This document shows positions 40,789 to 63,739 of a stretch of 64,000 nucleotides of DNA, piece by piece. Under the pieces are notes generated by a model. It saw only the letters and a list, made by a program, of their open reading frames with translations, searched no databases and had not been told where the DNA came from. The stretch lies in the NCBI GenBank assembly GCA_019096065.1, contig JAGUCH010000008.1, positions 3,353,001 through 3,417,000 of the forward strand, given 5' to 3'. Position 1 is the stretch's first letter. The number at the start of each line of letters is the position of its first letter. The DNA comes from Paracyclopina nana. Taxonomy: Eukaryota; Arthropoda; Copepoda; Cyclopoida; Cyclopettidae. A program made the translations under genes and the position numbers.

Positions 40789-42269
40789 ATGTCAGCTGAC
40801 GTGACTGCTGATGCAGCGTGCAGGTCAAACAGAAACATCGCAGGTCAAAATGGAGGCGTCAAAAGAAGTTACGCCTCCTGTTGTACCAACTTCGAGCGTA
40901 ATAGACAAAGAAAACAAGGAAAAGAGGAAAAGTTTGACCCCTTAGAGTATTTCAAGTTGGCAGTGTTCAACGCTCGTGCAAATCGAATAAGACTTGAACG
41001 CCAGGAGCAAGCAGCTAGGGAAAATTTGAGGAGAGTCAAAGCCACTTCAACCAGAGGATTCACATTTTACTACACTGTCAGAGATTCTGATGGAGTGCAT
41101 CCAGGAACTTGGGATACTGAGTCGGACTCTGAAACGTCAGATTCTGAGTCCGAGTCCGAAGATGAAGTATTCCTCCACAGCCTACTAAAGTTGGAAAATA
41201 GAACAAAGGAAAAAATGTTGAAGGTGCTCAGCTTTTGGAACCATCCCTGGTGAACGATCTCAGCTTGCTGACTATACGTGCTGAGCGGATTGATGGTGCT
41301 GAAGATTTATCAAATGGTTCTGAGCATATATTGAATTATGCTGAGCAATCATCAAATGGTGCTGAGTTGATGTCAAATAGCGCTGAGCTAATGTCAAAAG
41401 GTGCTGAGCTGATGTCAAATGGTGCTGAGTACTTATCTGATGGTGCGAAGCTGATTTTAAATAGTACTGAGCATTTATCAAGCGGTGCTGAGCTGATCTT
41501 AAATGGTGCTGATCAAATCATAAACGGTGCAGATGAAATATCTAATAGTGCTGAGCATTTATCAGCTAACCAGGTTTCACATGGAGCTGAGCATGTTTCA
41601 AATGGAGCTGAGCAAATTTCTAGTGGAAATGAGCTTACATCGAATGGAGCTGAGCATGTCTCAAATGGAGCTGAGCAAATTTCTAATGGAATTGAGCTAA
41701 TATTGAATGGAGCTGAGCAAATTTCTACTAGAACTGAGCCAATATCGAATGGAGCTGAGCGAACTTCTTATGGAACTGAGCTAATATCGAATGGAGCTGA
41801 GATATTTTCTAATGGAACTGAGCTAATATCTAATGGAGCTAAGCATGCGTCAAATGGTGCTTTGCATATTTTTAGGAGTGTTGATCATGCAGCAAGTTGT
41901 GTCAAAATGCCCACAAACAATCCACAGAAAATTTGTCAATTTCGACGCATCGAGACAATCTCAGCTTCTACTCAGCATCTTCATATAGACTACAACTACT
42001 CAAATATCCCTTGCACGAATTATGAGCGAAACTCATCAGACCTGAGCGAGCTATTGAAATGTGCAAATGTCGTGAAGAGAAACAATGACTTTCCAGAAAT
42101 TCAATTTGCGATCCCTGCCAGCGCAGTAAATGAGCAGAATGAAGAACCGTTGCTAAATTATGCTGAAATTGAAGAATTGTTGGATTCAGCTGAGAAATCG
42201 GTGACAGATTGGACTTCTTTTGACGACTTTATCCGAAGCTTTGACGCCTCTCTCAAGCTTGAAAAGTAG
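40789..42269 (+). CDS. Unrecognised protein with a long heptapeptide (xSNGAEL) repeat
   Basis: I do not recognise this gene. Two overlapping frames can be joined by a candidate 62-bp intron (donor AAG|GTGCTC at 41224, acceptor TGCTGAG ending 41285). This gives exons 40789-41223 and 41286-42269, 472 aa. The first part is basic (KRSYASCC, RQRKQGKEEKFDPLEYFKL, RANRIRLERQEQAARENLRR), then a Ser/Glu/Asp run (SDSETSDSESESEDE). The second part has about 28 tandem heptads of the form [IVLM]-S-N-G-A-E-x, followed by a non-repetitive acidic C-terminus (IEELLDSAEKS, FDDFIRSFDASLKLEK). There is no signal peptide or membrane segment. The same GTGCTN donor type is used in the fusion gene. The alternative is a one-base indel at the A6 run near 41212, or two separate ORFs, the second opening near 41219. 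Confidence 0.55.
41289..41860 (+). repeat. 21-bp tandem repeat coding for SNGAE(L/H/Q) heptads
   Basis: About 28 imperfect 21-bp units such as TCAAATGGTGCTGAGCTGATG encode S-N-G-A-E-x-hydrophobic heptads. A subset forms higher-order pairs (GAEHVSNGAEQIS occurs twice), indicating segmental expansion. Ala and the Ile/Leu/Met are spaced 3/4, as in a heptad, but the Asn-Gly in each unit argues against a simple coiled coil. Confidence 0.85.
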
Positions 42270-50464: not shown

Positions 50465-50675
50465 ATTTTATATACTGTAATACGATTTCCTCGTGTTATA
50501 ATTCAGTTTACCGATCCGACTCAGCTCTTTTATATCACAGTCCTTTCTAAGCAATTTGGGGGATATTAAATACTTAACAGCCCTTGAATCAAATTTGAGG
50601 GATTTTAAGTAATTTAATGCCCTCATATTCCATGGAAGTAATCCAAATTCCAAAGAAGTTGGAAAAAGAGAGGAT

Positions 50676-50748
50676 CATCCAAGATTCGAACCTCAGACAG
50701 TTAAAGTAGCAACACAACGCTCTAACCACTGAGATATGAAAACATCAT
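50676..50748 (-). repeat. tRNA-like module, copy 1a
   Basis: The minus strand reads ATCTCAGTGGTTAGAGC (box A-like) and, about 30 bases later, GAGGTTCGAATCTTG (box B-like). It has the spacing of a tRNA but no acceptor stem, so it is a tRNA-derived element rather than a gene. The equivalent in copy 2 lies at about 51475-51545. Confidence 0.6.
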
Positions 50749-50823
50749 GAAAATTGCATGCTATGTATAGGACTTTAACCATAATTTAAGCCAGATAAAG
50801 AAATAAAAAAAGTTAAGGAATGA

Positions 50824-50886
50824 CCGGGGTTTGAACCCTAGACTCCTGAATCAAGAGCCTAGCACTCTAACCATTGTGCCACAGGA
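50824..50886 (-). repeat. tRNA-like module, copy 1b
   Basis: The minus strand reads GTGGCACAATGGTTAGAGTGC, with a perfect GCAC/GTGC D-stem. An anticodon-like hairpin and GGGTTCAAACCCC (a T-arm-like box B) follow. The sequences where an acceptor stem should be do not pair, so this is a pseudo-tRNA. It is repeated unchanged at about 51624-51686. Confidence 0.65.
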
Positions 50887-51075
50887 ACACATCTGAAGAA
50901 TTGGATTTTAAAAGTCTATTTAATTGCTCCCAACCCTCTGGATGCTAGCTAATGAGAGCCAGTGATATTCACATAGCAACTAAAAACCGAGCAGTATTTT
51001 CTAGGGCACGGGGCAGCCCGGTAACTTCATTAAAACACTCATAAATCGTATTACAGAATATAAAATTGTATATTC

Positions 51076-51252
51076 CGAGCTGGGGCACGTAAAATAGGGT
51101 CATTAAATAGCTGACCTCGGATTTTAAAATGGAAAAACACTCGTACAATTACAGCCCTCGCAGGCTCGGGCTAGTAAAGCTGTACTCGAGTTTTCCCATT
51201 TTAAAATCCTCGCTCAGCTATTTAATGACCCTACTTTACGTGCCCCAGCTCG
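51076..51252. repeat. Large inverted repeat (foldback), copy 1
   Basis: A left arm at 51076-51145 (CGAGCTGGGGCACGTAAA...) pairs with a right arm at 51182-51252 (...TTTACGTGCCCCAGCTCG) with few mismatches, leaving a ~36-base GC-rich loop. Copy 2 is at 51876-52052. Confidence 0.88.
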
Positions 51253-51875
51253 AAATAAATAACTATTATATACTGTAATACGATTTCCTCGTGTTATAAT
51301 TCAGTTTACCGATCCGACTCAGCTCTTTTATATCACAGTTCTTTCTAAGCAATTTGGGGGATATTAAATACTTAACGGCCCTGGAATCAAATTTGAGGGA
51401 TTTTAAGTAATTTAATGCCCCTCATATTCCATGGAAGTAATTCAAGTTCCAAAAAAGTTGGAAAAAAGAGAGGAACAACCCAGAATCGAAACTCCGACAG
51501 TTAAATTAACATCCCCAAGCTCTAACCAATGAGCTAAGGAAAAATCAAGAAAATTGCAAGGTAAGTAAAGGACTTTAACCATAATTTAAGCCAGATAAAG
51601 AAATAAAAAAAGTTAAGGAATGACCGGGGTTTGAACCCTAGACTCCTGAATCAAGAGCCTAGCACTCTAACCATTGTGCCACAGGAACACATCTGAAGAA
51701 TTGGATTTTAAAAGTCTATTTAATTGCTCCCAACCCTCTGGATGCTAGCTAATGAGAGCCAGTGATATTCACATAGCAACTAAAAACCGAGCAGTATTTT
51801 CTAGGGCACGGGGCAGCCCGGTAACTTCATTAAAACACTCATAAATCGTATTACAGAATATAAAATTGTATATTC

Positions 51876-53312: not shown

Positions 53313-56300
53313 TTAGTTCATATACTTTCGGCACTTGCGAGCAGAGCACGAGCAGGGGATTTTCACATCCTCAATGGGGAATTTGTAGTCATAGGTCAAC
53401 TCCTCGCCGGGAAGAATTTTCCGCATTGCAAATATAATGATGTGCTTCTTGCCAAAAATGTCCACGATCTTGGAGTAGCAATTGGGCTGCAAAAAAGGGG
53501 AAATTGAGATTCAGCTCAAGTTAACATAATTAAGTCAAGAATCAGCTTACATCACAAGAGTGGTTGATAAAACGAGCAGCATTTCCCTTCATCGTGGCGT
53601 CAACCACGGTGTCATCGTCAATCTTGAACATGTAGCAGCCGATGCCTCGGCTCTCGTAGTATTTTTCTCGTTTATCAGTCAGCATGGCTCGGATCTCTTC
53701 GCCAGCATACTCTATGACCATTTCTCCAGATTGGATTTCACGCTTGCAAAACAGCCCTCGGCCGTGAATTCCAGAGCTGTAGACCCCGACGGCCTCTTTG
53801 GCATTCTTGGCCAAGTGCCTGAACCTCATGGCCATGGGCAAGTCGAGCGAGGTTGCTCGCCTCGCAGCCGCAATTTGTACTTCTGTATCAGGATTTTGCC
53901 CACTGTTGTAGAAATCCGGCCTTTGCCGGTGTCTGGATGCCAGCCACGAAAACATGTCGAGAGGCTTGCGATTTTTGAAGGCCTCTCCCCTTGAACATCC
54001 CGATGGATTGTTGGCCAACTTGTCCTCAGGTTCACTCTTGACATGGTGATGCTTGAAGCTGTAGTTGGAAGCCTCGCTCGCTCCAGGTAGTTGCTCAATC
54101 AGGTAGGACACAGCTGCATGCGTGAGGCCCAGCATTTGAAGGCCAATTTCACCAATGGGATTTCTAGATGGAATGGTTTTCAGTCCATGCAGCGAACGAG
54201 CCTCTTGAACAGCCTCAAAAACTTGAAGCCATAATTTGTTAATGTCACTCGAGGCCGCGCGGAAGCCACCGTCCTCAGAGGTCAATTCATAGATAACTTG
54301 CTCATCGTCAGAGTCGTCAGTCTCATCGTCGGCTTCCTCCTTCTTAACCTCAAGTTTGGGCAACTGATCCTCTGGCAACACCTCATTGACAAACTGCTCT
54401 TGAGACTGTTGAACCTGGCCATTCCCATCAAGTGGCACAACAAGAGCTGGCTCCTTGTTGACCCTGGGCTTGTACTTTCTCTTGGTTTTGGCCTTCAAGG
54501 CAGCAATAGCTTCTTTGGGAGGAAAAGCTTCCGGATTCTTGCCCCCGTCCTCAATAGTCATTTCTTGGATTTTGTACTCGTCATTATGCAGGTTTTTCTG
54601 CAGCACAAACTTGATGGCATTTTTCGTGCTCTGCTTGGTCTTCACCCGTATCTTGTCGACGACTTTATCATCGTAAACGAGGGCGTCGTCATTGACATCG
54701 GGACTGGAGCAATAATAGGAATGGTCCTCCTCAATGGCTTTGACGCAAGGTGAGCCATGAGAATTTGGCCTAGAGCTTGTGACACTTACACCAGAACTCA
54801 AGGTGTGGAAAATGGGCTCAGCTGAGGTCGTCGGCGTATACGAGGTGGAACCTTTCCAGGGCCTCGGGGAGATTATTTTCAAGGGCGCTCCAATTTTGGC
54901 TTGAGTTCCAACAGACCTTTGTTTATCTGACTTGGACGTCGAGGGCGAATCATCGACATAGGTGACGTCAATGTTACTTTCGGGAATATTATGCGATATT
55001 GATAGCGTAGCATCTTGAGCAGCATTCATCGGTTGGCTGGCCATACTTTGCATGGCTTTTATTGGATCCACTTTCTTGCTGGGTCTGATATTCTGCGGTT
55101 GCGGCTGAACTCGAGCCACTTTCCGAGGAGGCTGGAATTGCGGAGACTCGGAGCTCAATGAGCGAGGCATCATCGATGATGAGCCAGGCGCTGCTGACAT
55201 TAGATTGGCAGTAGACGAGACGAATTGACTTGGGGATCCAAAGTAACTTTGTGGCTGCTGAAAGGATGCGCCTGGCGTGAACAGGGGCTGAGGGGCCTGA
55301 TTAATGATGATCCCTTGCGGAGTTAAGTAACTTATCTGAGGCTGAGGCTGGTATATGTTTTGGTATTGAAAAGGCTGGTATGGGATGCTAGTGACATAAT
55401 GCAAAGTTCGGCCAGTCTGCTGCTGAAAGCTCTGAGCAAAATTGGGTGCCATTGCAGGATTTGGCAAGTGGTGCAAGTAGACGGGAGGTTGAGCCATTCG
55501 AGGCTGCAATTGGGGGAATCCAAAATTAACTTGAGGCTGATGAACGATAGGCTGAGGAGCAGATGTTGCAATGTAGACAACATCGTCGTCGGATGGTCTT
55601 CTTAAAGGTGCATTCGCAGCTCCATGTACTAATTGAGGCTGGGTCACCATGGGACTTTGCACCGAGACGACTCCTTGAACTTGGCTAGGATTGGGAGGTG
55701 GTGAAAGAAGGCCAGCGATGGAAAAGTCCTTTCTGGGGCTGGCCTCTTGCTTCACCTCGACATTTTCATCACCGGCCCCGTCAAATTGAGGAATTGAGGT
55801 AAGGTCCGGCAGGAGCAGTTTATCCGGAGAAGCCTCATTGGACAAGCAGACAAAGTCATTGTTGTTTTCAGCCTCTTCGTTCGGTTCGTTGGGCAGGTCC
55901 AAGAGTTGCTTCAGAATGTCCATGTTATCAGTCTCTTCAGCTTGCTTGGAAAGCTGCTCCACAACCAAACTGAGAATGTCAGCGGATTCTTCATTGCCGG
56001 CATTATTCATGTCGTAATCCTCAACAAAATCCTCGTACGACTCGTCAGACTCGTAATTTTCTTCCTCATGCATTTTCTCGTATAGCTCGTCCATCTCGAA
56101 ATTCGTCCTCGTAAAGGGCAAATTGACTTGAATGGCAACCTCGGTGACTTTGACCTTTTTCTTTTGATTAAACCAAGTCTGTATTACGTCAACGCTAGGA
56201 TCTTTCTTGGATTCCTCTCTTAAAATCGAGTCAATTAAGTCAGACCCAGGGAAATCTCGACTAAATGCTGCCAAAAGATCGGATCCATCCTCGAGAATTT

Positions 56301-59300
56301 TGCTCGGAGTCCTTTTCAGCAAAACATTGCTCACAGCCTTATTCAAAGGCCTCGCCGGGCTTGATCCAGTCGAGCTCAATATGGTCGATAATCTATCAGA
56401 GTTGTCCATCGAAGCCTGCCGTATCAGATTGTACCTAGGCCTCTTGCTTGGGCTTTCGTAAGCATCATCGGTTCTGTGCAAATCGCCATATTTCAGAGTG
56501 GTCCAAATCGAAGAGACAGCATATGGTGGCAGAATGTTGGTCTTTTGAGCCTCTCTCACTTCAATTCTTCGAATGGCGAGCTTGGCCAGCCTCAGCTGAT
56601 TTTCGGCCTCTTGGAATCCAACTTGGGAATGATCGATGGTGACTTCAGCTCCATTTTGGGAGCGATTATCGGGCTTCTTAGCAGTTTTGACGGTACAAGT
56701 ATATCTGACTTTGCGAGTGGGATCCAAAGTTGACCAAAACCACCTGGAGCATCGAAATCCTATAGGGATGAGGGCTTCTTCCGAGGAATCGGCTATTTGA
56801 GTTGAAAGCTGCCAATCTGACAAAGACTCCACAGCCAGGGATCCAATGTAGACTTTGACTTGCCTCAAATCGACGCATTTCGACGACTTCTTTTTCATGT
56901 CAGATTCCACTTCCACGTGGATGGTGCGGGCAGACTTGAAGTTTTGCTGCTCCGGAATAGGAACGTAGTAGTGCTTGTGAGATTTGCAGTAAACAGTCTT
57001 GTCCTCTTTAAAGGACGATCCAGCGGAATTGAACCGTCCACACTCGAAGTGTACGTTCTCTTTGCAGTACTCATGGCAGCATCCAATGGTGGCTCCTTTT
57101 CTGTTGCAAATCGTACACGTCAATTTAGAGCCTCTGTTCAAAGCTTGGCCAACATTCTGCAAGGATCCATCGATTTCTTCGTAGACCTCAGAAGACCAAA
57201 GTGCGCAGTTTACGTGGACCCAATCTGAATAGCGGAAGTGAATGAGCCTTCCGGCGGCTTCTGGGCTGCGGTCACCGAAAAGCCCACAAAATTGACAAAT
57301 CCTCGTGTCCAGTCTGCAAAAGAGCATATTACAATGCATGCACATGCATGGGGAAGTTTCATAACAAAAGTTTTCTACCTTGTTCGTTTTGAAGCTAATT
57401 CGGACTCCTCTTTGGGCTCCTTTGGGCTCTTCTTTTCATTAGTGCTCACGTACTGGTGGTCATCACCCAAGGGAGGCAGAAAGATGTTTTCGTCGGTTTC
57501 AAAGTAGCTCCAAGGTTGGTTAGGGTCAAACCATGGGAAAATTTCTCGCGCTATCCCCTCATAGGCCTGGAAAAATGCTCGTTTCTGCTCCTCTGTAACT
57601 TGGGGCACAGAATTGATGAGCCTTTTGAGCTCGAAGTGGCACTCCAGCACTCCGGAAAATGCATCGGACTCTATTCTCTCCAAAAATTTGGAGAAGTTCA
57701 CTAATGGCTGCTGTGGTGGCGGCGGCTCCCTCTTAAGGATTTTCGGCTTGATGACAGTGTTTTCGGTCTCGCCACTCAGCTGCCTCACTTTGGGTCCCCA
57801 CCAGGGATGCTTGCGAATGTCGTTGACTACCACGGAACAGGTGGGCTTTGCATTGCTGCCGAAATCTAATTTTCTCTTGGCGTGCTCCAGATCCTCTCCC
57901 CTTTTCGTGGTGATTGGAGAAGGCTCAATGTATGGCATCGAGGAGGGATCTTTTGTCAGCGTGTCAACAATCGACAAGAAGCCCTTTTTCATCATTTCTA
58001 ATACTGCTCGTTTCCACACGGGGATATCCTCTTGACTACTAGTGTTGCATTTCCTGAAACGACGAGTCACTGTGAGTCAACTGTTATGCGAAAAAGAGGC
58101 CTTACATAGCATCATATCTGAAAATTTGTGCATAAGATGAAAGATAGCATATGGGAAGAGTTTAAAAAGTAAGCTGTAATACTTCCTTCATTCATTATGA
58201 CGCAATTTTCAGATACAACGCTTCAACGGAAATAAAGGTAGTAAGTGTAGTTGCTGAATCTCACTTCGGACGCTACAGCAGCATTAGGAAGTACCACAGC
58301 TTACCTCAATGGGATGCACGTCAGTGGGCACATCAACAAATTGCTCCTCCTCCACTTCCATGGAATCGATTTCAGGATTCTCTGACAACATTTGGAACTC
58401 TTTGGCATGCATGGGACTACTATTGCAGGGCGAATCTGAGCCCATTGTGACCGCAGTGGCCAGTGATTGCCCCATCAACCCCGAAGACTCGGAGGATCCG
58501 TCTTTCGGCACAGGCTTTTTGCACCTAAATTGGGTTCGGACATTTTACTAAATGGGATAGCACCAGGCGGGAAGGAGGACTCGCGATGCTATACAAAGCA
58601 CATAAGGCAGAAAAGACGTATCTATATGCTTACTTGCACACATATTCTATTGTGTTGGGAAGGTAGCTCAGCACTTGGTATTTTTCAGCGTCCACTCCTT
58701 CGCACTTGGCATGAATCCATCCTCCACAGTTGGCGCATTCCATCATTCTCGTCTCGTAGTCATTGTCGTCATAGCAAGCCTCGCACAGAGGGCAATAGCT
58801 GCCCTTTTTCCGCTGCAGACAACACTGATCGCAGAGCGGCCTATTATCTTCCTCGTCGAAGTGGAGGACATTAGCCACATCACAACTGCTGCAGCGGAGA
58901 CATTGCCCACAGAGCCAACTTTGCTGCGAGGCCTGTTGCTCGATCATTTTTTGCTGACTTGGCAGCAAACATCCAGAATGGAAGCCCAAAGTGCACTTGG
59001 CGCACCGCATTCGCTCACCCTCATTCAACCCACATATTTGGCACTGGATGCATTTTCTGCAAGCGCACAATAACACAATATAGCGCACAACATATGGCGC
59101 AGCTAAATTATCATTTTACCTGCAAATCCAGTCGGCCTCAGCCTCAGAAGTTTGCGGGAGCTCCTCGGGATTCAGGCAAAATGGATGATAAGGCTCACAG
59201 CAAGCTTTGCAATAGAGCAAATCTTCTTCCCCTGCAGAGCCACAAAGGAAGCACAAAGCATCAACGGGCAGAGGCTCTGTGGTGACAACTGCTTGGCCGG

Positions 59301-62300
59301 CCACCTCGACTTGATCAGGATCATAGGGCTCGTAGAAATCCACTGAGCCACTGAAGGGAGCCGACTTTTTGGCCACTTTGAGGCTGCTGCTCTTCAATTG
59401 GTCAATATTTCCCACTTTGATGGCGATTTTCTTGCCCACGTGAACTGGTGGAATTGGAATTTGCTCCAAGTCTACATCTTGCAAAAATACTTTGACGGGG
59501 CTGGACCCAGGATTGGCTAGGCCCATCTCGATGAACTCCTCAATGCTTTGCCTACGTTGCTCCCTCTCATCAGGATTCTCGGGAATTTCTTTGCGAGGCG
59601 TGACAACGGGCGTGGTCATGGGTTGACTAATCGAAACGCTAAGAGAGGAGTCTTTGTAGGAGTCATTGTCGGGCTCCCAGAAGGACTCGTCCGGTTTCAC
59701 AATCTTTGGCCTATTGACTGACTTTTTCACCTTCTTGAAGGCTCCAATCGACACCTTGGGATCAATTCGCCAAATCCCACCTCCCTTGCGAGCCGGATTA
59801 TCCGTTTTGGTTCTGTAGAAGGCCTTGTTGAGGCTCAAGTTGTGGCGAATCGAGTTTTGCCAGCCCGCTTTGTCGATGCGACTGAAGTAGGGGAAAGCGT
59901 CATTGATCCACTCGTAGATCTCATTGAGAGTTCCCTGCTTTTCTGGCATATTTTGAATGGCCATGGCTATTAACGAGCTGTAGGACATGTTTGGCCTCTC
60001 CTGAGACCTCGGGGGAACAGGAATTCTCTCTACGTTTGGCGTTGCTTCACTCTTTGGCGTGAATCGAACCTTGATCACTTTGTGGTTCCTCACTTCAGCC
60101 TCTCTTTTGTTGGCATACTCTTTGGTGCCAGGGTTGGAGCACTTTCGCAGTACGCAAGCTTGCTTGAGCTGTCCTTGACCACCATATTTTAGCATATCCT
60201 TGCAGGGTATGCAGTCTCGACAGTTTCTCGTTTTGCACCCAGTGCATTTCCCACAGCGTTTGATCTTGATTCTCTTGACGAATTTACCCGAGGCGAGACC
60301 TTTGGCCGTGTCCGCATCAATGCTGAAAGTACCCACACCTAGGGAAGGCGTTTTCTGCCGACTCGGCGGCACTGACTTCTTGGCAACCATGGCGGATTCT
60401 TGCTCGATTGCTGCCTTAATATCAAAGTCATCTTTGACTTCATCCACACTCACCTCAGGGCTGGATTCTTTCTCCGGAGTTGGAGGAGTGGGTGGCCTTT
60501 TTTCTGGGGACTTTTTCAGCACCAGCACTGCCGCACTTTTTTGCTCGGGCTCTCTAAACTTGGCAGGAACTTTGACTTCTCTACGCGAACTTTTCGGCAA
60601 GATGATCATTATGCCAGAATTTGGTGTACTTTTGGGAGTACTTTTTGGTGTCGTGGCACTACCAGAGTCTGCGCTTTTGGGAGCACTGCGTGGAATGTCA
60701 GCATTCTTGGGCGTTACAGGAGTTTTTTTCACCAAAGTCTCTTTTTCTGTTGATGCCTTTTGAGGAGTAGAAGAAGTAGTCGCCTTCTTTTCGTCATCTT
60801 CTTGCATTTGCAGAAGCTTGTCAGCCTTCACTACCTTTTTCGGCAGCGAAAAGTTCACTATATTGGCATCGATCACCGCACCTGATTTGGCCACGTAGAT
60901 TTTCAGCTCTTTGGCCGATCTGATGGTCTTCCTATCGGGCGTTATTAAGAACATATCCCATTTGCCTTTGAGCGATCCTGTCAGCCTTTTCACAGCCTTC
61001 TTCGACCAGCCATTGGGGAGCCTTTCAGTCACCTCATTTGCTCTTTTACCCGAGGACTCCGAGATCACTGGCGCAGCCTTTTCTTCTGTATCGACACCGA
61101 ATCCGTCAAACAGAGGCCGCGAGAGGGGAACTTGTCGATTAAACTCTAGAATTTCGCCTCGATTGGGCAAGAGATCAAAAGCGGCCTTTTCTCGTTCCGC
61201 AGCCTCCGGCAGCAGATCGTGAAACACAATGGGCAAACGAGATCGAAGCTTGTCGTACAGGCTGGCCTCCAATTTGTAGCCTATGAGGCACAACTTCAGC
61301 CAGCACGCTTGGCACCTCCCAGATTGAGCTAGATCACAGGTTTTCCTCTCGGATTTCTTCGACTTGACACCGCTCACAGACCTTATTGAAAGCTCAAATA
61401 AATGCCTCCATTTTATGTAAATCAAGAACAAAAGTACCTAAGAACCGGAGGGACGACGCAAAGACCCGTGCCTGAAACGCAGGGGAAAAGCTCCTCGTCC
61501 TCATCAGTGGCCTTGGATTGCTGGCTCATTTTGATCGTCTTCGATATGAATTTTCGACAAGGTTCGCAGCTGAAGGTGCCGAACTTTTTCGCCTGCAGGA
61601 TAAATGCATAGTAGCGGACAGCGCCGCAGATGCCACAGACAATATTTCCAGGCATTCGGTTGTTGGTCGCAGACGACAAGGCCGACTTTTTCGAGGTAGA
61701 TGCCTGTGTCTGGTCATTGTTTAAAAGTCCTGAAGCAGCCGACTCCTCCACCAAAGCAGTTCCAGCTGAAATGGCATTTTAAAGGTGATTTGTTAGCCAG
61801 CTTTCTACGGAACGTGACAGCCAAAATAGCTTTATCAGAACAAAGCCACGAGTGTACGTACACCTAATCTATGATAATCAGGACGAAACAAAAGAAAAAA
61901 GGCCGTGGCGTGGTGTTCCCTATGTTTTTGATGACCACGTCAATAGCACGTATTTCACTTAGTAAATAATGCCAGTTGTCGTAGGGAAAAAACGTGACTG
62001 ATTGCTTATAGAGCCAATGCTAAGACTCATTAGCCCAATCAAAATTAACAAGGCATAATAATGACGCATTTATGCAATTGATGTACTACGTTACCTGGGT
62101 TGATAAAATCTGGCCCTTGCACCAATTTGGGAGGAACTTTGTCCGCACTTTGCATCGATCTTTGGATGGCTTGGTAAAACTCGACTTGTTGGCTCGGTTT
62201 TCGCAGCCTTTCCAGTAGCTTTTGATTCAAAACCAACTTCGACTCTCTCAATAAGGGCTTAGCTGAACTCGGTTTCCTTTCTTCATCGTCTTTTTTGGTG

Positions 62301-63739
62301 GCATTTGGAGACGGCGAAATTCTGCTGCTGCTTTTGACAAACTTATTCTCCACCTTTCGCAACCTTGATGGGCTCCATTGAGATGCTAAGTCGGAATTCA
62401 TTTCGGAGGAGCCGACTTTTTCTTCTGCGGTTGTAGTTAACTTCACAGGGCTTTTGAAATGGTCTGATGCCTCTTTGAGCTTGAAGGATGGCTTGATTGC
62501 TCTTTTGCCGAAGCCGCGTGAGAAAGGACTGCTGCTGGTATCAGAGTTTTCTTCATATGTGTTCGAAATATGGCCCAGTTTCGAGGGTCTGATCAACACC
62601 TTCTTGGGAGGACATGAAATATCACCTCCGCCTTTTTTTGACTGAAAAATGAGAATTCATTTCCGTGGAGGAGCACCAAAATTGTGGAGAGAGAGAGATA
62701 ATGCAGTGCGAGATTAAAGTCTTACTTCGTGGGCTCAAGAAACTTTAAAAGATGAAAATTCTTAATCTCGCTCGGCAATTTAAGCCATTCTCTACTTAAG
62801 CGCAAAAATACATTTTGAAAAAAAGAAGATGTTCAATAGTTTGTATACCTTGGAAGCGAGGCTGCTGTCATCCAAAGCACGTTTCCACGAATCGGCTTTT
62901 TCTTGACACGCTCGCAGCTCTTCGTCGGTGTACCCATAAAATTCGGCCTCTTCATCCTGAGAAGAAAAGAAATCCACGTCTGGTTAAAAAGAAGAGAATT
63001 CAGGTCTCTCGGCTTTTGTATTTCTCAGGCCTTGCTGCAGTAAATCCCAGGTGAAGGATAAAAGCCTGACAGGAATACTTAATTTTTCCCCGACGACGTA
63101 ATGCTACTTGTTCATTGCACCGCAGCTGCCAAGATGTGCATTCGTTTGATGATTGTCGAGATCCCAATCGTGAGCATGGTAATTCAATGGAAAATAGCTT
63201 TGACACACGTGTTGGCTATCGACTTTTTTGGCCTTTTGCCTTCTTTCTTGGTATGTAAAAAAGCTCTATGAAGCCTCTTTTTTGTGGAGATTGTGTCATA
63301 TCGCAAGAGCAACAGAATTTCAAAGAATTTTCTTTTACGGGCTTTTACGAAAACAGCAAGCGCACGAAAAAAATAACGTGATAACTGACGCAGTGACGCG
63401 ACGTCAATTGACGAGAAATTCAAAAATCAACATTTTTTTTAATTGTTGACGTCTAGTTGTTTACTTTTCGATACGTCAAATCCCCGTTGAAGTTGACGCA
63501 AGAATTTCGGAAAATAGTGTAAAAAAGAATGGGCCTTTGGGGGGAAAATCACTTACTTCTGAGTCACCAAAGGCTTTATTGAACATTTTGAATCCCTGCT
63601 CAATATTTTTGGCGGCTTTCAATCCACTGTTCTCTTCTTCGGCAACCAAAGTTTGACGCCTACTCGACCGTCTAGTTTTTGTATGGCCACTTTTCGCCAT
63701 TTTGCGGCCAGGAAATTTCGACTTTGCACTATTTGACAT
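53313..63739 (-). CDS. trx: Trithorax / KMT2A-B histone H3K4 methyltransferase with an inserted forkhead domain
   Basis: Nine exons: 63739-63557, 62956-62849, 62641-62095, 61765-61438, 61381-59120, 59056-58634, 58053-57379, 57313-53551 and 53486-53313 (8463 nt, 2820 aa). In order: a basic N-terminus with the MLL-like FNKAFGDSEDEEAEFYGYTDEE and VLIRPSKLG; the nuclear-receptor-like zinc finger typical of Trithorax (CGICGAVRYYAF, CEPCRKF); a CXXC zinc finger (about 754-806, CGKCTGC, KYGG); a complete forkhead domain (about 849-937); PHD1-3 (about 1098-1283); a degenerate bromodomain region; the extended PHD (ICQFCGLFGDRS); FYRN; a Taspase-1-like site QFDGAGDE; FYRC; a WDR5-binding Win-like motif (GCSRGEAF); and a SET domain with INHSCDPNCYS, ELTYDY and post-SET CSCSARKCRKYMN. 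It deposits H3K4 methylation to keep Hox and other genes active. The forkhead domain is not part of any Trithorax/MLL I know. Confidence 0.96.
58284..58524 (-). CDS. trx: Alternative (truncating) exon of trithorax
   Basis: A good acceptor (CCAATTTAG) and donor (GAG|GTAAGC, exon end 58305) bracket a 220-nt open segment in phase with the preceding PHD3 exon, coding for CKKPVPKDGSSESSG...DVHPIE. Including it shifts the next exon out of frame (GAA ATG CAA CAC TAG). If the donor is not used, the frame stops at 58284. Skipping it rebuilds the final PHD3 Cys pair as CKKC, matching other KMT2 proteins. It is therefore probably an alternative terminal or poison exon producing a protein that ends after PHD3 without SET. 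Whether it is transcribed cannot be seen. Confidence 0.5.
59735..60000 (-). other. Forkhead (winged-helix) domain coding segment within trx exon 5
   Basis: This part of the 2262-nt exon encodes a full-length forkhead fold. It starts ERPNMSYSSLIAMAIQNMP and TLNEIYEWINDAFPYF, then the recognition helix GWQNSIRHNLSLNKAF, then the wing GGGIWRIDP and a basic end KKVKKSVNRPK. The recognition-helix residues N, R, H and S that read DNA bases in FOX proteins are all present. The reading frame is open on both sides into CXXC and PHD1, with no splice junction between. Confidence 0.95.
61766..62094 (-). other. Intron of trithorax
   Basis: The donor is GTAACG (62094 leftwards) and the acceptor is CCATTTCAG ending at 61766. 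No other feature is seen. Confidence 0.75.
62957..63556 (-). other. First coding intron of trithorax
   Basis: The donor is GTAAGT at 63556 and the acceptor is TTTTCTTCTCAG ending at 62957. The joined exons restore the conserved acidic motif GDSE|DEEAEF. No other feature is seen. Confidence 0.75.

Follow-up and report, generated by a model that had tools for sequence, protein, structure and literature searches.

A forkhead domain between the CXXC and PHD fingers of the predicted Trithorax protein of the copepod Paracyclopina nana

The window, a 64,000-nt stretch of Paracyclopina nana DNA (contig JAGUCH010000008.1), contains a predicted complete trithorax gene of the KMT2A/B type (53313..63739, minus strand; 10 exons, 2,895 aa, start to stop codon) whose product carries a forkhead (FH) domain. 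This fused forkhead is probably a built-in, sequence-specific recruiter of the single recognized KMT2A/B H3K4 methyltransferase of this copepod. The introns of the model end in GT and AG, except that the exon 8 acceptor is one base off. Apart from the exon carrying the forkhead and a methyl-CpG-binding domain (MBD), the predicted gene is an otherwise ordinary, SET-terminated Trithorax, with the following features:

63557..63739, minus strand: exon 1, encoding the N terminus and its SKFPG motif
61438..61765, minus strand: exon 4, bulk of the nuclear-receptor-like (NR-like) cysteine finger
59120..61381, minus strand: exon 5 (2,262 nt), end of the NR-like finger, MBD, CXXC, forkhead and PHD1
60826..61041, minus strand: MBD (PF01429), Pfam E 7.6e-11, MeCP2 structures E 1.3e-8
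60139..60273, minus strand: CXXC zinc finger (PF02008), Pfam E 1.5e-10
59719..59997, minus strand: forkhead (PF00250), RPNM...KKVKKS, Pfam E 3e-30 (Pfam bounds 59752-60000)
59818..59862, minus strand: recognition helix WQNSIRHNLSLNKAF, from the sequence
59120..59253, minus strand: PHD finger 1, Pfam (PHD E 1.4e-6); the end of PHD1 is in exon 6
58634..59056, minus strand: exon 6, PHD fingers 2-3, Pfam and model
56974..57216, minus strand: extended PHD (zf-HC5HC2H), Pfam
56686..56790, minus strand: FYRN, Pfam
54046..54276, minus strand: FYRC, Pfam
53551..53763, minus strand: first part of the SET domain, exon 9, Pfam
53313..53486, minus strand: last part of the SET domain and post-SET, exon 10, model and protein comparison

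The SKFPG motif is also found near the start of the Trithorax proteins P0006 and P0011, and RFPG in P0005. The model further contains the sequence QFDGAGD, corresponding to QLDGSDE in the Tigriopus protein P0002 and to a similar pattern in both barnacles, which we take to be a possible Taspase1-like cleavage site. Elsewhere in the window, positions 50500-51751 hold a direct duplication with a spacing of ~800 nt (similarity of 91% and 98% over two stretches), and positions 41202-42269 a 355-aa frame consisting largely of short degenerate repeats, with no Pfam match.

Exon 5 is a single open frame throughout, preceded by AG and followed by GT, and it has the in-frame order of NR-like finger end, CXXC, forkhead and PHD1 that had been proposed in the first-pass annotation; the domains named there were all detected, and the MBD in the same exon, located between the NR-like finger and the CXXC, had been overlooked. 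The MBD scores 41.9 bits (cut-off 21), the CXXC 41.4 bits (cut-off 26.5) and the forkhead 104.6 bits (cut-off 27), the last covering profile positions 1-83 of 88 and thus near full length, with the recognition helix (WQNSIRHNLSLNKAF) intact as originally described. Chance similarity is ruled out by the E value of the forkhead and by the recurrence of the same domain order in other species, and a separate FOX gene overlapping trithorax is ruled out by the continuous reading frame. It is extremely unlikely that an assembly or gene-model artefact joins a FOX gene to trithorax, given that the domains share one open exon of the DNA itself and that the CXXC-FH-PHD order recurs in independent species with separate records; misassembly, a concern raised at first pass, is contradicted by the forkheads in the Trithorax proteins of Tigriopus californicus and Lepeophtheirus salmonis. 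Codon composition was uninformative as a sign of recent insertion, as the GC3 of the forkhead (0.656, vs. 0.533 elsewhere in the exon) falls inside the sliding range of 0.368-0.695.

The solved forkheads closest to the exon 5 domain are FKH-14 and FoxC2 (E ~1e-22), and both FoxC2 and FoxK, among the solved forkheads matched, also have the recognition helix WQNSIRHNLSL. The signature of the forkhead recognition helix is NxxRHxxS. The form WQN(S/A)(I/V)RHNLSL is present in 13/13 sequences compared (the window, P0002, P0057-P0066 and P0068; nine Trithorax-type and four without PHD), a set retrieved via exact words in common with the query and hence biased towards conserved homologs. AlphaFold2 modeling of the stretch from CXXC to FH placed the helices and strands of the forkhead in the expected winged-helix order, with block pLDDT values of 88-92 for the forkhead helices, 66-78 for the wing, falling to low values beyond the domain.

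Assignment of the gene to the KMT2A/B type is based on several features. Residues 2640-2895 (SET and post-SET) match Tigriopus trx along their entire length at 78% identity, and among the best 120 of 1,431 matches to the SET region those with names are mostly Trithorax, KMT2A or KMT2B, the rest being hypothetical or oddly named. PHD1-3 and zf-HC5HC2H were both detected by Pfam. FYRN and FYRC adjoin in KMT2C/D; here FYRN (216-250) is far from FYRC (1054-1130) in a 1,297-aa frame. Like KMT2A/KMT2B (MLL1/MLL2) and Drosophila Trithorax, the copepod protein has PHD1-3, an extended PHD, separated FYRN and FYRC, and SET; the KMT2A/KMT2B-type CXXC is also labeled in vertebrate, mollusc and tick proteins, and the NR-like finger is alike by eye. 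To this common plan the copepod adds the forkhead between CXXC and PHD1 and the MBD between the NR-like finger and CXXC. A search for FYRC in the 92-Mb genome returned two loci, the forkhead-bearing trithorax and a gene on contig 5 classed by eye as KMT2C/D; within the reach of this search, the forkhead-bearing gene is the sole predicted KMT2A/B-type locus among the FYRC matches of the genome. Its product would presumably be active as an H3K4 methyltransferase in a WDR5/RbBP5/ASH2L complex.

A search with the region from CXXC to PHD3 matched 55 proteins, three of them fungal forkhead proteins; among the other 52, a forkhead label is found only on P0002, Tigriopus californicus TCALIF_01684. Similarly, only P0002 carries a PF00250 label among 120 of 1,431 SET-region matches listed. 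When the forkhead profile was run against the 168 KMT2-type proteins listed, P0002 alone scored, the next best reaching 0.1 bits; this set includes partial proteins, some perhaps from copepods (P0177, P0178, P0185), so that absence is not proven protein by protein. Together with a further search, this places Trithorax forkheads in Tigriopus, Lepeophtheirus and six further partial proteins. Among 120 of 1,269 matches listed in the further search, seven (P0057-P0061, P0065 and P0066, Lepeophtheirus salmonis KMT2A among them) have FH and PHD together, all shorter than a whole Trithorax, and P0062-P0064 have CXXC and FH with no PHD; P0068 has FH plus C2H2 fingers. Domain order and coordinates were confirmed by hmmscan for P0002, P0058, P0063, P0066, P0003 and P0068. 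The CXXC-FH-PHD order of the window is shared by Tigriopus (FH at residues 1053-1128 of 3,483 aa; the CXXC of P0002, at 26.4 bits, is just below the 26.5 cut-off), by Lepeophtheirus salmonis (FH at 883-967 of a 1,267-aa record, no SET), in both of which the forkhead is more diverged, and by P0058. The MBD of P0066 went unreported at E 0.001, yet is alignable (45% identity over 76 residues). The Trithorax proteins of barnacles (Pollicipes, Amphibalanus) and a decapod (Palaemon) have the same MBD-CXXC-PHD order but, unlike the window, lack the forkhead, and the Trithorax proteins P0003 and P0004 have an MBD, C2H2 fingers, two CXXC and no FH. The idea of a natural germline Trithorax-forkhead chimera is thus borne out by the same domain order in independent species; the first-pass view that it belongs to a lineage holds, with the correction that this lineage is wider than was thought and not private to one species, as Tigriopus and Lepeophtheirus represent two different orders of podoplean copepods.

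The time at which the forkhead was gained was addressed with a tree of 23 Trithorax proteins from which the CXXC and FH columns were left out, several of its rows being long or gappy. The window, the FH-bearing proteins and P0003 and P0004 form one group (support 100/100), to which barnacles plus decapod (89/84) are sister, the whole group of 14 having support of 87/89. Because the FH-less P0003 and P0004, which we guess to be calanoids, fall inside the copepod-type group, the forkhead requires two changes on this tree, and one change suffices in 4% of 200 bootstrap trees. Gain of the forkhead in copepods is the simplest reading; the two FH-less sequences may instead reflect loss of the domain, an early divergence or a repeated gain. 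It is unlikely that the forkhead was gained repeatedly, or was exchanged between Trithorax and zinc-finger genes that stand on their own, and was not fixed a single time in an ancestral copepod. The two changes would fit such a history, as would P0062-P0064, which have CXXC, FH and C2H2-like stretches with no PHD or SET, and P0068 with its FH and C2H2 fingers. However, the window-type forkheads form one clade (88/82, or 92/79 with five rows left out, including the members Tigriopus and P0068), a single clade of FH-bearing Trithorax is not rejected when imposed as a constraint (p 0.305), and P0063 and P0064 group, as derived branches, with P0058, which lies within the Trithorax set. Of P0062-P0064 and P0068, which have no PHD or SET, three were included in the tree, and their forkheads nest within the Trithorax FH clade. 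It looks as if a CXXC-FH module had budded off Trithorax into proteins of this kind.

The FOX-family tree suggested at first pass recovered the window-type forkheads as one clade and did not single out a donor family. The first tree gave no supported sister to them; after five rows were dropped, FoxO and FoxP grouped with the Trithorax forkheads (90/77). AU tests rejected joining them to FoxK (0.005), FoxT (0.010) and, barely, FoxJ1 (0.04), and did not reject FoxJ2/3 (0.15), FoxO (0.27), FoxI (0.12) or FoxC (0.20). The Trithorax forkhead appears to lie within none of the FOX subfamilies sampled in the trees. FoxJ2/3 is listed in the ancestral arthropod set in a panarthropod Fox study (PMC8918179). 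A free-standing FoxJ2/3 was not recognized by eye among the forkhead matches of the P. nana genome; a relocated FoxJ2/3 was considered as the donor, and nothing supports it. Subfamily labels within the genome were assigned by eye, from what we take to be the signatures of each subfamily. The same genome contains a cluster of forkhead exon copies, FoxP-like by eye (G000 C6:3340734-3422485), and a degenerate forkhead-like relic with an altered recognition helix (L057, G000 C7:5402789-5402902). Capture of a FOX exon, the route suggested by the first-pass annotation, is not borne out: the exon is large and there is no splice site at the edges of the forkhead, therefore the present structure gives no sign of exon capture.

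Conservation was compared along exon 5. Between the window and P0058, identity is 79% in the FH, 73% in the CXXC, 88% in PHD1 and 64% in the MBD, vs. 29% in the linker before the FH and 52% in that after it; the corresponding values for P0057 are 74%, 73%, 84% and 65%, with linkers of 43% and 55%. With Lepeophtheirus the FH is 51% identical and the linkers 14% and 31%, and with Tigriopus the FH is 40% identical and the linkers 31% before and 33% after. The same forced alignment over the FH yields 30% with the forkhead-less Palaemon. The Tigriopus forkhead has a shortened wing and an identity barely above that of its linkers, yet scores 89.4 bits in Pfam. These values bear on the possibility of a vestigial passenger, a domain with a complete or partial fold that is tolerated in a linker and has no function. 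The narrow difference between FH and linkers in Tigriopus and the lack of FH in P0003 and P0004 would suit a passenger, but in the nearer relatives P0058 and P0057 the FH stands well above the preceding linker and also above the following one, and the recognition helix is kept in the 13 sequences compared; we regard this explanation as very unlikely. By pattern, a motif following the FH (e.g., SIEEFIEMG) is present in the window, P0002-P0004, P0057-P0061 and P0065, that is, even in the FH-less P0003 and P0004, and was not found in P0066 or in eleven other Trithorax proteins scanned.

The MBD aligns to MeCP2 with the counterparts of R111, D121 and R133 kept and that of Y123 changed to F; these four residues are, in what we take to be the usual numbering, the methyl-CpG contacts of MeCP2. 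The mean AlphaFold2 pLDDT of the MBD stretch is 73.5. Four Trithorax proteins among the best 120 of 1,431 SET-region matches have an MBD label (P0002, Palaemon, Pollicipes and Amphibalanus). The MBD looks older than the forkhead because it is common to barnacle and decapod Trithorax; in the NCBI lineage, copepods and barnacles belong to different clades of Altocrustacea, so that this age of the MBD is tentative. The P. nana genome has 15 MBD matches and three loci matching DNA methyltransferases, two of which have a CXXC 1.3-1.6 kb upstream and appear DNMT1-like in arrangement. With these methyltransferase loci and MBD matches, methyl-CpG reading is possible, not proven. The window as a whole has a CpG observed/expected ratio of 0.70, and the trithorax gene one of 0.78.

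An own recruitment module for Trithorax, as envisaged at first pass, is plausible: the recognition helix and the predicted fold are kept, and DNA binding and targeting would follow from them. A winged-helix domain of the FOX type would have been fixed, in an ancestral copepod, between the CXXC and PHD1 of a protein with an MBD next to its CXXC. The forkhead has most likely kept its ability to bind DNA sites of the forkhead type, and once bound would tether the methyltransferase complex there, with the MBD and CXXC reading the nearby CpG state and tuning the tethering. Targeting and catalysis would thereby reside in one polypeptide, whereas in other animals a DNA-binding factor does the targeting and a cofactor the catalysis, and the forkhead-bearing Trithorax may find its own target genes with no separate recruiting factor. 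Catalytic activity, binding to DNA and the sequence preferred, recruitment, and cooperation of MBD and CXXC with the forkhead are here predicted from sequence.

In a study of human FOXQ1, this forkhead protein recruits the MLL core complex in trans and directs KMT2 to promoters, its forkhead box directly binding RbBP5 (PMC9626503); what is fused in the copepod is two proteins there. A forkhead can therefore direct a KMT2 enzyme, and conservation of the copepod forkhead could reflect protein binding. The forkhead might thus be a module that docks RbBP5 or another partner, its DNA binding lost or incidental, as could also be suggested by the diverged FH and shortened wing of Tigriopus. We consider this a serious alternative but rather improbable, as the recognition-helix motif retained in 13/13 sequences is not obviously required for pure protein binding, and as co-precipitation of MLL-complex members was not seen with FOXC2 in the same study, so that such binding is not general to forkheads (PMC9626503). 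The recruiter reading, which we prefer, has to accommodate both the Tigriopus forkhead, at 40% hardly above its linkers and with a shorter wing, and the FH-less copepod-type P0003 and P0004, which indicate that Trithorax can do without the domain.

We tentatively suggest a broader reading, in which copepod Trithorax is self-addressing: one polypeptide would read CpG in both its methylated (MBD) and unmethylated (CXXC) forms along with a forkhead sequence, the stretch from NR-like finger to PHD1 would be a plug-in site for exchanged DNA-reading domains (the forkhead, or C2H2 fingers and a second CXXC), and the CXXC-forkhead module would have budded into new zinc-finger transcription factors. 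If so, the target choice of Trithorax would evolve through domain swapping.

The public records of the Tigriopus and Lepeophtheirus proteins already have Pfam forkhead labels, and their source names do not mention a forkhead. No description of a Trithorax forkhead was recognized among the matches listed from the open-license full-text literature. The panarthropod Fox study includes the copepod Eurytemora affinis, and the words "trithorax" and "fusion" are absent from its main text (PMC8918179); an arthropod SET-gene paper does not cover a Trithorax forkhead in the passages searched (PMC5459927), and the sole match in the passages searched of a Tigriopus paper is Trithorax-like, a different gene (PMC12962235). 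The Trithorax forkhead is thus apparently present in databases but not discussed in the literature.

The winged helix is held in common with FOX factors (FoxC, FoxO, FoxP, FoxJ), and here is part of a histone methyltransferase. In the MLL-FOXO3 and MLL-FOXO4 fusions of human leukemias, which arise by somatic translocation, the N-terminal part of MLL is preserved and the SET domain lost. Those fusions likewise join MLL and FOX in one polypeptide, whereas the copepod Trithorax retains the whole enzyme, and the copepod chimera can be regarded as their germline counterpart. It has long been asked how Trithorax/MLL proteins find their targets; the general view is that, in flies and mammals, separate factors and the reading of CpG bring them to genes. 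A transcription-factor DNA-binding domain made permanent in the only recognized KMT2A/B protein would be a natural test of Trithorax targeting, as the forkhead would allow a target sequence to be predicted and then sought at H3K4me3 promoters. Copepod Trithorax would also represent a highly conserved regulator rewired via domain gain.
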